Source: an uncultured SAR86 cluster bacterium (lineage in GTDB: Bacteria > Pseudomonadota > Gammaproteobacteria > Magnimaribacterales > Magnimaribacteraceae). From it: 64,000 nucleotides of DNA. The notes beneath the pieces are model-generated. The model worked only from the letters and a program-made list of their open reading frames with translations, ran no database searches and was not told the origin of the DNA. A program made the position numbers and the translations under genes. Below are positions 3,481 through 58,389 of the stretch, piece after piece; positions within the stretch are counted from its first letter, which is position 1; every line of letters begins with the position of its first letter. The stretch is taken from positions 186,001 to 250,000 of the forward strand of contig CACLAF010000001.1 of assembly GCA_902604855.1 (NCBI GenBank), read 5' to 3'.

Positions 3481-5238
3481 ATGGCATCAAAAAACTCTCA
3501 TTCAGAGACCATAAAAGAAGCCGTTACAGCTGCAACTAGAGCAATATCAGGCAACAAAGAATTAGAAATTAATTTTGGAGGAATGGGCTCATCACTTCCT
3601 CACCCACCTAAAACGCTTAAAGAGTTATCAGCTTACAGAGGAAAAGCTGATTCTCTTGCTTGTGTAGAAAAATATAGAGATAAATCAGTCAGGATTACCG
3701 CAAGCAACGAAAAAGTTAATTCTCTAATTAAAGTTATGGAGGATTCACGGGTAGAAATACTTGGGTCGATAAACTATCCAGGTATAGCAACAAATATCAA
3801 ATCTAAATTTGATGATAAATGTAAATTATATGAAAGTTTTGAAGATCACGAAGATCATCTAGAAATTGCTTTAGAAACTTGGCTAAGAAATTTATGCCTT
3901 CCAAACATTGAATCAAATAATTCCAGTTTTTTTCTGAAATATTGGGGCAAGGTTTTTGATAATCAAGAAACAGAGTTCAAAGAAAGATTAATAGAATCAC
4001 TGAATGATCAAACTAAATTTCAAGAGATTGCTGAAGACTTTTTAAAGAATCTAAATATTGATCAAGAAGAAAATGAACAAGAAGAGAGTGATTTAGAAGA
4101 TGAGAATGAAAAAGAAGAAGAATCAGCTTCTGAAAGTGGAGAAGATGAAGAATCACAAGAATCTGAAAGCTCACCAGAACAAGATAATCAAGAAGGCGAT
4201 GAAGAGACTGATGCGGATTCTGGAGACATAGATGAAGATGCGATTGTAGATGAAAATCAGGAAATCATGACTAATCAATCATGGCTTGAATCTCTTGTAG
4301 GCCAGACTTCAACATTCTCATATAAAGTCTATACAAGAAATTTTGACGAGGAAATCAAAGCAGAGGATTTATGTAGCCCCGAAGAGCTTCAGAGGCTTAG
4401 AAAACATCTTGATCAACTTATGGGTCCCAGTAAGGCTACAATCTCTAAATTAGCTCACCGATTACAAAGATTTTTAATGGCCCAACAAAATAGATCTTGG
4501 GAATTTAATAAAGAAGAAGGAATGTTAGACTCAGCGCGTTTACATAAAATCATTACCGATCCTCTTACCCCTTTAACTTACAAAATAGAGAAGGATACTG
4601 AATTCCGAGATACGAGCGTTTCTCTTCTGGTAGACAGTTCGGGGTCAATGAGAGGTAGATCTATGACAGTAGCGGCAATTTGTGCCGATATAATAAGCAC
4701 TACTCTAGAGCGTTGTAATGTAAAGACTGAGGTTTTGGGCTTCACGACTAAGCAATGGAAAGGGGGAGAGAGTAGAAAATTGTGGATGGAAAATGGTAAG
4801 CCAGAAAATCCAGGAAGGTTAAATGATATAAGACATATTATTTTTAAATCAGCTGATACACCATGGAGAAGAGGACAAAAAAACTTTGGATTAATGCTTA
4901 GGGAAGGTTTGCTAAAAGAAAATGTTGATGGAGAGGCGCTCATTTGGGCTCATGACAGACTCGCAAGAAGAACTGAACAGAGAAAGATACTCATGGTAAT
5001 TTCTGATGGAGCTCCGGTAGACGATAGCACCTTATCAACTAATCCAACTAATTTCTTAGATCTTCATTTAAGACAAGTAATACATTCTATCGAAACACAA
5101 TCAGATATTAATCTAATAGCAATCGGTATTGGTCATGACGTAACTCGCTACTATAAAAATGCTGTTACCATTCATAGGGCTGAAGAGCTTGGCGGAGCAA
5201 TGTTAGAACAGTTAACAGATCTTTTTAAAGTAGATTAA
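3481..5238 (+). CDS. cobT: CobT-like protein with acidic linker and C-terminal VWA domain
   Basis: Glu/Asp/Ser-rich central linker, then [16 protein letters not shown] (MIDAS DxSxS) and [16 protein letters not shown]; directly downstream of the CobS-like gene. Confidence 0.83.
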
Positions 5239-55074: not shown

Positions 55075-55992
55075 TTAAGCATGCAAGTGAAACCAGCTTT
55101 TGTGTATTCTTTGGTCAAGATTTGAAATCTTACCTTGTAAGTTATCCAAAAAAGTATGGAGCTTGTCGTCGTCATAACTCTCAACTCTTGATGACATTAT
55201 TCTTTCTATGACTTTGTAAACTTCTTCTTTCAATAAACTATTATTTGGTAATACAGCGACGCATTTATCAATCTCCCTAAGACAGGTATTCAATGATCTT
55301 GGGAAACCTTTATTTTTAAAGAGAAATCTAAGAACGCTGCCTCTTTCAATTTCACCCTTTGATTCTTCTCTGTATGCACCTTGGGCAGAGAGATTTCTTA
55401 ACATACTAGCCCATTCGAGAGTTGAGAAGTCATGTGTCTGAGAATTCTTCTTTGAGACGCATAATGTATCAAGAGTTCTGGAGATCATATCCACACGTTC
55501 GATATACCTTCCTAACCTGATGAATTCAAAAACTAATCCAGTAGAAAAATTGTCATTTATTATGCCAAAAAATCTTTGAGATCCTTCAATGAGTTTATAC
55601 ATATCTTTTGGTTGTCCTCTTCTTGCTTTCAAAGTACCTCGGTTAAATTCATTTAAAAGATTATTAACTTGCTCTGTTGCAGATTGGGGAAGATAGTCTC
55701 TTGTTTCTTTAACATTATAAGCTGCTTTAACTAGAGAATTTTTAATTGAGTTAGGATTAGCTTCTTCATAGCAAAGAAAATTAATTACATTAGCTTCTTT
55801 GAAGGTCATATACCTTCTTTGATAAATATCAAGATTATCCAGAGTTTCAATTATTGATTGCCATCCTAAAGTTTTATCACCAGGAAAATCTAACATTAGC
55901 TCAGAATTAACATTTATTAATCTAGCAGTATTCTCAACTCTTTCTACATATCTAGAAAGCCAATATAGGTGTTCTGCATCTCTACTTAACAT
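55075..55992 (-). CDS. Alpha-E domain protein
   Basis: MLSRDAEHLYWLSRYVERVENTARLINVN, characteristic alpha-E N-terminus; next to circularly permuted ATP-grasp. Confidence 0.92.
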   Translation of the reverse strand: MLSRDAEHLYWLSRYVERVENTARLINVNSELMLDFPGDKTLGWQSIIETLDNLDIYQRRYMTFKEANVINFLCYEEANPNSIKNSLVKAAYNVKETRDYLPQSATEQVNNLLNEFNRGTLKARRGQPKDMYKLIEGSQRFFGIINDNFSTGLVFEFIRLGRYIERVDMISRTLDTLCVSKKNSQTHDFSTLEWASMLRNLSAQGAYREESKGEIERGSVLRFLFKNKGFPRSLNTCLREIDKCVAVLPNNSLLKEEVYKVIERIMSSRVESYDDDKLHTFLDNLQGKISNLDQRIHKSWFHLHA

Positions 55993-55994
55993 AA

Positions 55995-57476
55995 CTATTT
56001 ATCTACAATCCATGTATCCTTGCTTCCTCCTCCTTGAGAAGAATTAACTACGGTAGAGCCTTTCTTCAATGCAACTCTAGTTAGGCCGCCTACAGTCACA
56101 TAACTTTTTTCACCAGTTAAAATAAATGGTCTTAAATCTAAGTGTCTAGGCTCTATGGAACCTTTATCATAAGTTGGAGTGGTAGATAACAACGCAAGCG
56201 GTTGTGCAATGTAATTGCGTGGATCTTTTCTTATTAACTTCAGTGTCTCTTCTTTTTCCTTTTTGGAAGCGCTCTTCCCAATGACTATACCATAACCACC
56301 AGACTCAGCTACAGGCTTAATAACAAATTCTTTAAATCTATCTTTTATTAATTCAAAGCTTTCTTTATCACTCATCAAATAGGTTTTGAGATTTTCTATA
56401 ATTGGTTCTTCCTTTAAATAAAATTTGATCATTTCAGGTACGAAAGAATAAACCGCTTTATCATCTGCTATTCCACAGCCCGGCGCATTTATTATAGAAA
56501 CATGTTTTTTTCTCCATGATTCGATTAAGCCTTCAACGCCCAACACAGAATCTTTATTACCTCTTAAGGGATCTAAAAAATCATCATCAATTCTCCTGTA
56601 AATCACATCAACACGAACTAAACCTTCTATAGTTTTTTTGTATACAAAGTTATCCTTTAATACTACCAAATCCGTCCCTTGAACTAGATCTATGCCCATT
56701 TGCTGAGCAAGATATGAGTGTTCATAATATGCTGAATTGTAAATGCCGGGAGTGAGGAGAACCATTTCTGGTTGACGACTTCTAGAGTAACTTAGAGATA
56801 CAAGTGTCTCGTAGAGTTTTGTTGGATATGCACCTACCGGCATTACTCCATAATGTTGGAATAGATCAGGAAAAACTCTCTTCATAACGGTTCTGTTCTC
56901 GAGCATGTAACTTACACCAGAGGGCACCCTGAGGTTATCCTCTAATACATAGAAAATTCCATCTTTATCTTTAATCAGATCAGAACCGCAGATGCTAGAC
57001 CAAGAATGATGTTTAAGTTTCATACCCATACAGTATTCTTTAAAAGCGGGAGATTCAGTTATTAGAGATTCATCCATATCGCTTTCTTTTATAAATTTCT
57101 GTTCGTTGTAACAATCTTCTATGAAGAGATTTAAAGCTTTTACTCTTTGCTCTAAACCTTTCTCTACTTTGTCCCATTCTTTTTTTCTGATGATTCTTGG
57201 AATGAAATCTAACGGCCAAGACCTGTCTTGCCCCTCTATATACTCCTCAGAATAAACTCGAAAGGAGATTCCCATTGATTTAATAGCTGACTCAGTGGCA
57301 TTATTTATTTCATTTAGGTCATTTGGACTTAATGATCCTAGAAACTTACCTATTTTCTTTGTGTGAGTTCTGAAGCCTTGAGATGTGTTGAGGTATTCAT
57401 CAAAAAAAGGTGATGTTTGATAGTTTTTCCATGAAATAGCCACTTTAAATAATATGCAATTAGCAAGCCAAAACAT
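55995..57476 (-). CDS. Circularly permuted ATP-grasp protein (start uncertain)
   Basis: LEDNLRVPSGVSYMLENR, NAPGCGIADDKAVYSFVPEMIKFYL, RHLDLRPFILTG, GLTRVAL, NSSQGGGSKDTWIV. Confidence 0.92.
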   Translation of the reverse strand: MFWLANCILFKVAISWKNYQTSPFFDEYLNTSQGFRTHTKKIGKFLGSLSPNDLNEINNATESAIKSMGISFRVYSEEYIEGQDRSWPLDFIPRIIRKKEWDKVEKGLEQRVKALNLFIEDCYNEQKFIKESDMDESLITESPAFKEYCMGMKLKHHSWSSICGSDLIKDKDGIFYVLEDNLRVPSGVSYMLENRTVMKRVFPDLFQHYGVMPVGAYPTKLYETLVSLSYSRSRQPEMVLLTPGIYNSAYYEHSYLAQQMGIDLVQGTDLVVLKDNFVYKKTIEGLVRVDVIYRRIDDDFLDPLRGNKDSVLGVEGLIESWRKKHVSIINAPGCGIADDKAVYSFVPEMIKFYLKEEPIIENLKTYLMSDKESFELIKDRFKEFVIKPVAESGGYGIVIGKSASKKEKEETLKLIRKDPRNYIAQPLALLSTTPTYDKGSIEPRHLDLRPFILTGEKSYVTVGGLTRVALKKGSTVVNSSQGGGSKDTWIVDK

Positions 57477-57498
57477 TTTGGTTCTTTATCGTAAATAA

Positions 57499-57515
57499 TG
57501 CACTTTTTAAGTGCT
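57499..57515. promoter_or_regulatory. NtrC-like dyad (candidate enhancer or operator)
   Basis: TGCACTTTTTAAGTGCT; imperfect match to TGCACC-N5-GGTGCA, with the inner GCACTT/AAGTGC palindrome perfect. Confidence 0.35.
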
Positions 57516-57618
57516 GTTTGTAGCTTAAAAAGAATATAATAATTTATGAGATTTCTTCCTGAGTGCCTTTTACAGGCCTTATATAAAAAAAATGGCAGAG
57601 AGTTAAAGAAAGATTAAA

Positions 57619-57635
57619 CTGGCATAAGTATTGCA
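57619..57635 (+). promoter_or_regulatory. Candidate sigma-54 -24/-12 promoter
   Basis: CTGGCATAAGTATTGCA: GG and GC dinucleotides separated by 10 nt, as in the TGGCAC-N5-TTGCW consensus. Confidence 0.4.
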
Positions 57636-57654
57636 TGTTCTTGTGGGAGGTTAT

Positions 57655-58389
57655 ATGTCTTACTGTCTAGCAATTAAAGTAAATGAAGGTTTAGTATTTG
57701 CTTCTGATTCCAGAACTAATGCGGGGTTAGATAATATAAATACTTATTCAAAAATGTTTACCTATAACGTAGGTGACAGGGCTTTTGTTGTTCTAACAGC
57801 TGGAAATCTCGCCACATCTCAAGCGGTATATCACCAACTCGAGAAAGATCTAAATGCAGATAACCCAGAAATGAACCTTAATCTTTGTGAAGATATTGAA
57901 GCTGCTGCTCAATATATTGGAAGACTAAGTGTTTCTAGTTCAAACCAGTCCCTAGAAGTTCAAAATCAATCTTCCATGTTGGGATCATTTTTTATTTTAG
58001 GTGGACAAATCAAAGATCAAGAGCCAAACCTATTGTTAATTTATCCAGAAGGTAACTTCATTTATGTTTCAAATGAACAACCCTACCTACAAATAGGCGA
58101 AACTAAGTATGGAAAACCAATACTTGATAGGATGATAAATAAGGATACTCCTATTGGAGATTCAGCAAGAGTAGCACTTCTTTCTCTTGATTCAACTATG
58201 AGAAGTGACCTGACTGTCGGACCACCGATCGATTTTGTAGTTTATAAAAAGGATCAAATACATTTAGATTATCAAGGAAAATATGAATTTATGTCACCTT
58301 ATTTCAAAGAAATGTCAGATACCTGGGCCCAAAAACTCTCGGATGCAATTCACACATTACCGAAGTTCGAATGGGAAGAAGAGGATTAG
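57655..58389 (+). CDS. Proteasome-type protease (Anbu family)
   Basis: MSYCLAIKVNEGLVFASDSRTNAGLDNINTYSKMF (Ntn-hydrolase proteasome-like); divergent from the alpha-E/ATP-grasp genes it is usually found with. RBS GGGAGG before the ATG at 57655. Confidence 0.88.
   Translation: MSYCLAIKVNEGLVFASDSRTNAGLDNINTYSKMFTYNVGDRAFVVLTAGNLATSQAVYHQLEKDLNADNPEMNLNLCEDIEAAAQYIGRLSVSSSNQSLEVQNQSSMLGSFFILGGQIKDQEPNLLLIYPEGNFIYVSNEQPYLQIGETKYGKPILDRMINKDTPIGDSARVALLSLDSTMRSDLTVGPPIDFVVYKKDQIHLDYQGKYEFMSPYFKEMSDTWAQKLSDAIHTLPKFEWEEED

Follow-up and report, generated by a model that had tools for sequence, protein, structure and literature searches.

A conserved NtrC-type dyad between divergent sigma-54-type promoters points to joint nitrogen control of anbu and its ATP-grasp/alpha-E neighbours in a SAR86 bacterium

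The window, a 64,000-nucleotide stretch from an uncultured SAR86 bacterium (genome of 1.36 Mb, ~83% complete), carries anbu and, facing away from it, the genes for an ATP-grasp and an alpha-E protein (Table 1). The sequence finds its best matches among genomes of the SAR86 cluster. The Anbu protein matches the solved structures 5loy (E 2.8e-63) and 5lox (E 1.2e-52). When we looked for the catalytic residues Thr1, Asp17 and Lys32(33), Asp17 and Lys32 were kept, while Thr1 was replaced by Ser in 11/11 genomes of clade A, by which we mean this genome and its 10 closest relatives (L029-L038, with Anbu identities of 82-100%). The clade A proteins begin MSY (57655-57660 in the window, and L029-L038), and Thr1 is found in other SAR86 and in SAR11. 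We read Ser1 as a conservative substitution; in other respects the protein is clearly an Anbu. In one relative, a single-cell genome (L036), the anbu frame (4001-4733) is broken after ~33 codons, which could be due to a sequencing error or a real frameshift.

ATP-grasp, alpha-E, transglutaminase and Anbu genes do not form a single four-gene operon here: the ATP-grasp and alpha-E genes are divergent from anbu, and the transglutaminase N-terminal domain (PF08379) was absent from 13/13 SAR86 genomes searched. Because of this absence, the SAR86 set appears to comprise three genes: Anbu, ATP-grasp and alpha-E.

Table 1. Features of the anbu locus (window coordinates) and of RpoN-box loci in deeper SAR86 genomes (locus coordinates).
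Feature	Position	Strand	Remark
alpha-E gene	55075-55992	-	directly downstream of ATP-grasp gene
circularly permuted ATP-grasp gene	55995-57443	-	corrected GTG start 57443-57441
predicted sigma-54 -24/-12 element of ATP-grasp/alpha-E genes, TTGGCTTGCTAATTGCA	57455-57471	-	second, divergent element; inferred +1 ~57444
NtrC-type enhancer dyad, GCACTTTTTAAGTGC (GCAC-N7-GTGC)	57500-57514	.	common to both promoters
predicted sigma-54 -24/-12 element of anbu, CTGGCATAAGTATTGCA	57619-57635	+	inferred +1 ~57646
anbu, proteasome-like Ntn hydrolase, 244 aa	57655-58389	+	Ser1 instead of Thr1
stand-alone RpoN-box protein	L115:1846-2088	-	
stand-alone RpoN-box protein	L116:5536-5766	-	
stand-alone RpoN-box protein	L117:5315-5545	-	
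stand-alone RpoN-box protein	L118:5574-5801	+	
stand-alone RpoN-box protein	L119:5513-5740	-	
stand-alone RpoN-box protein	L120:4853-5089	+	
stand-alone RpoN-box protein	L121:5193-5420	+	
stand-alone RpoN-box protein	L122:5004-5240	-	

The first-pass annotation had reported an NtrC-like dyad and a GG-N10-GC sigma-54-type element upstream of anbu, and both are present where it placed them. The dyad, TGCACTTTTTAAGTGCT (57499-57515), had been called an imperfect consensus match; its core (57500-57514) is in fact an exact GCAC-N7-GTGC, with the half-site spacing of TGCACC-N5-GGTGCA. The anbu element (GG at 57621-57622, GC at 57633-57634, spacing N10) matches 13/13 scored consensus positions (TGGCAY/TTGCW flanks). 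With +1 placed at the customary distance of about 12 nt after the -12 C, the anbu leader would be ~9 nt long here and 0-10 nt across the 11 clade A genomes. The dyad lies 139 bp from the predicted anbu start (134-141 bp across clade A), in agreement with the ~140 bp proposed earlier and within the usual enhancer range.

Both motifs are rare in the genome. GCAC-N7-GTGC occurs in 4 places (reversed-pattern control, 0) and the strict promoter pattern TGGCAYRNNNNTTGCW in 7 (control, 0). Arithmetic from these counts gives ~0.004 dyad and strict promoter pairs no more than 200 bp apart expected genome-wide, compared to 2 observed: one at anbu and one at a putative porin gene of the Gcw_chp family (TorF-like) on contig C17, where the upstream dyad begins 43 bp before the strict -24/-12 element. 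Three of the 4 dyads lie ahead of either a nitrogen gene or a sigma-54 promoter; the dyad on C4 falls within a purE-like coding gene, and we discounted it as a chance match. Among the strict promoter matches, we rejected C1:72655 (antisense within a coding gene), C3:99444 (within a gene) and C4:118270 (its start site would almost coincide with the first codon, and we saw no dyad). Strict elements at L009:1501-1516 and L010:1501-1516 (-), upstream of small or repeat-rich ORFs and without an exact dyad, are possible other sigma-54 targets.

What the first-pass annotation missed, beside the anbu element that it found, is another -24/-12 element, which lies on the minus strand in front of the ATP-grasp/alpha-E genes. 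A looser search retrieved TGGCTTGCTAATTGCA at 57455-57470 on that strand; the full element matches 12/13 scored consensus positions and reads TTGG-N10-GCA in 11/11 clade A genomes, and the dyad centre is exactly 63 bp from the predicted ATP-grasp +1 in all 11. This element overlaps the beginning of the ATP-grasp ORF if the listed start (57476) is used. We ruled out that start because four relatives (L030, L031, L033, L038) carry in-frame stops between the element and the GTG given in Table 1, and because sequences matched in other families align only from about residue 12 of the longer ORF onward. Together with the element itself, these observations place the true start at the GTG, ~1 base past the predicted +1. 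The spacer that follows the element is unconserved in sequence and always 12 nt long. The gap between the divergent genes does hold the motifs attributed to it, but it should begin at 57444 rather than 57477, the ATP-grasp start having been misplaced. We infer that the anbu and ATP-grasp mRNAs are leaderless or nearly so; a short 5' UTR, previously counted for anbu as a sign of coincidence, is characteristic of both promoters and conserved.

The dyad and both GG-N10-GC elements are retained in 11/11 clade A genomes, so that the two motifs first reported are kept upstream of anbu in 10/10 close relatives. This retention is informative because five of the relatives (L032, L033, L034, L035, L037) have clearly diverged in the gap; the others are close copies, several of them near-duplicates, and the number of independent comparisons is therefore smaller than 11. 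The dyad and promoter of the porin gene recur at every clade A locus for which upstream sequence is available (5/5) and are missing from all of the deeper SAR86 homologues. At 16 deeper SAR86 anbu loci, we found neither the dyad nor a -24/-12 element. In the Anbu tree, clade A groups together with 100/99 support.

The genome also encodes the proteins that such sites would need, a check that had been suggested along with the motifs: full-length RpoN, NtrB and NtrC are all present. RpoN is 427 aa long, with DBD and CBD over the cut-off; its AID is weak in this genome (18.1 bits) and over the cut-off in 4 relatives. The ntrB and ntrC genes are adjacent, and a glutamine synthetase gene (Pfam) lies just upstream of ntrB. 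NtrC carries GAFTGA and is the only full match to a sigma-54 activator (bEBP) in the assembly; two other activator matches are weak, both in one 756-aa frame. One of the 4 dyads precedes the glutamine synthetase gene. In most clade A genomes a dyad stands upstream of glutamine synthetase-ntrB-ntrC (L109:3656-3670, L125-L133), but instead of GG/GC this region has only the degenerate sequence TTGCAC-N5-TTGTT (L109, L125-L133).

Taken together, the anbu/ATP-grasp-alpha-E intergenic region is very probably a bidirectional nitrogen-regulated control region, in which NtrC at a shared dyad would serve two divergent sigma-54 promoters. Under nitrogen shortage, NtrB would phosphorylate NtrC, and NtrC-P would bind the dyad. 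Its AAA+ domain, with the GAFTGA motif, would then remodel RNA polymerase-sigma-54 at both -24/-12 promoters, and expression of anbu and of ATP-grasp-alpha-E would rise together, supplying a proteasome-like protein along with its peptide-ligase partners. This scheme is built from sequence, namely the sites, their spacing and conservation, the presence of RpoN, NtrB and NtrC, and the joint absence in deeper clades; DNA binding, transcription start sites, phosphorylation and a nitrogen response are what it predicts. We find the wiring convincing because it is conserved here and absent in relatives without a detected full-length sigma-54. The earlier suggestion that Anbu is under nitrogen-type control is thus supported by the sites, their conservation and the regulators, yet it was incomplete: the divergent ATP-grasp/alpha-E genes would be included through the second promoter, and control of this kind is already documented elsewhere. 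NtrC enhancers often have two dyads, and the presence of only one strong dyad in the gap counts against the proposal, as do the unusually short predicted leaders and the lack of a canonical GG/GC element at the glutamine synthetase promoter, where the dyad is present.

NtrC could instead act mainly on the ATP-grasp/alpha-E promoter and drive the anbu element only weakly. The dyad is nearer to the ATP-grasp promoter and held at a rigid 63 bp from it, a position that resembles the one at the porin gene. However, of the two elements that of anbu comes closer to the consensus and keeps GG/GC in 11/11 genomes, a distance of 134-141 bp is normal for an enhancer, and sigma-54 promoters need an activator; we therefore consider such a bias unlikely. 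We give still less credence to the idea that both sigma-54 promoters are real while the dyad is read by a factor unrelated to NtrC or nitrogen. Other bEBPs can drive sigma-54, and an assembly that is ~83% complete could lack a second one, but NtrC is the sole full bEBP match and the same type of dyad precedes the glutamine synthetase-ntrB-ntrC genes. Finally, chance resemblance, in which an AT-rich gap contains a palindrome and a GG-N10-GC string by accident and transcription starts from sigma-70, had been left open earlier and could draw on the AT-rich genome, the short predicted leader and at least 3 strict-pattern matches elsewhere that lie within genes or do not line up with a gene start, but it is very unlikely, scarcely credible in our view, given motif rarity with genome-wide controls of 0, motifs and spacing kept in diverged relatives while the intervening sequence drifted, and their absence in clades without a detected full-length RpoN.

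The joint NtrC/sigma-54 control that we favour can be compared to systems known in other bacteria. In the E. coli glnAp2 type, a GCAC-N7-GTGC enhancer lies upstream of a -24/-12 promoter and works with NtrB/NtrC and a GAFTGA activator. The SAR86 locus has all of these elements, and unlike the glnAp2 type it has one dyad common to two divergent promoters and leaders of ~0-10 nt. In Burkholderia cenocepacia H111, I35_5080-83 (a DUF404/407 ATP-grasp, a DUF403 alpha-E and two transglutaminase-like genes) are reported as common targets of NtrC and sigma-54, with log2 changes of -8.2, -9.4, -9.4 and -6.0 in RNA-seq of an ntrC mutant under nitrogen limitation (PMC5491218). The ATP-grasp and alpha-E families and the regulators are alike in the two organisms. 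The B. cenocepacia cluster differs in that it includes transglutaminases and that the passages describing it do not mention Anbu, whereas SAR86 has a divergent anbu and no detected transglutaminase N-terminal domain. In Pseudomonas putida, Anbu is described as induced by nitrogen limitation (Hervas et al. 2008, cited in PMC5666114 and PMC6376114), which would be the same nitrogen-type control as that predicted from sequence for SAR86. Because the B. cenocepacia cluster and P. putida Anbu have already been reported, nitrogen control of the Anbu gene set is not new. A paper on the P. stutzeri NtrC regulon does not name the anbu, ATP-grasp or alpha-E genes, and in marine metagenomes the domains of the Anbu set co-vary with urea metabolism. 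In the literature searched, we found no description of the SAR86 instance, the shared-enhancer divergent architecture or the near-leaderless starts.

Elsewhere in the class, GCAC-N7-GTGC occurs upstream of the ATP-grasp gene at 8/69 loci of other genera (a single one belongs to the same order, all others to the class at large), compared to a mean of 1.0 for permuted half-sites and 0-5 of 69 loci for other half-site spacings. A -24/-12 scan of 29 other class loci plus our own (score >=9) was not clearly above shuffles, which are expected to give ~10/30 loci, and we therefore used only the dyad enrichment as class-wide evidence. Clear pairs of dyad and -24/-12 element are seen at a few other loci, such as L175 and L184. 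NtrC-type control of the ATP-grasp locus thus appears to recur, in a minority by the strict test.

The distribution of sigma-54 itself follows the same split. Full RpoN is found in 6/10 clade A relatives as well as in this genome; none was seen in the other 4, probably because their single-cell genomes are incomplete. Among 16 deeper SAR86 genomes, full-length RpoN was found in none. Eight of these (groups B1 and B2) match only the last third of the RpoN DBD, in ORFs of 75-80 residues that occupy the same place next to lptB (Table 1), and neither CBD nor AID was found in these groups. The short ORFs match the solved stand-alone RpoN domains 2o8k and 2mt3, and dN/dS is 0.05-0.26 where calculable; for both reasons the RpoN-box proteins look selected, that is, under purifying selection. 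NtrC of B1/B2 keeps an intact GAFTGA and a strongly constrained AAA+ domain, as seen at L134-L142, from SAR86 groups with no detectable full sigma-54. Group C (7 genomes) shows no RpoN match, and in 6/7 of its genomes NtrC is 258-261 aa long (L143-L148), with the AAA+ domain missing and the receiver fused to the C-terminal HTH; the seventh, G019, yielded no NtrC ortholog. Since single-cell genomes are incomplete, single absences mean little, while the group-wide pattern is consistent. Clade A versus the rest is one inherited split, so the association between motifs and RpoN counts as one event.

It is tempting to read these groups as a stepwise dismantling of sigma-54 control, a reading that in our judgement could equally well hold or fail. 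In clade A the switch would still be complete, and anbu/ATP-grasp would be one of the few clear targets; B1/B2 would keep a GAFTGA NtrC and a selected RpoN-box protein, which may now be a DNA-binding regulator in its own right at what used to be -24 sites; and a further group would have no detectable sigma-54 and an NtrC from which AAA+ was excised. We found no paper on RpoN in SAR86, and the newest aspect of this work is this by-product, that some SAR86 clades retain only a selected RpoN-box protein of ~75-80 residues.

An NtrC/sigma-54 circuit acting through one enhancer in an abundant ocean lineage would tie the Anbu/ATP-grasp/alpha-E set to nitrogen shortage. Solved structures of Anbu exist, and the predicted nitrogen circuit indicates when its substrates should be sought. 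SAR86 may also serve as a natural series of sigma-54 loss, along which the decay of regulator, activator and promoter can be traced.
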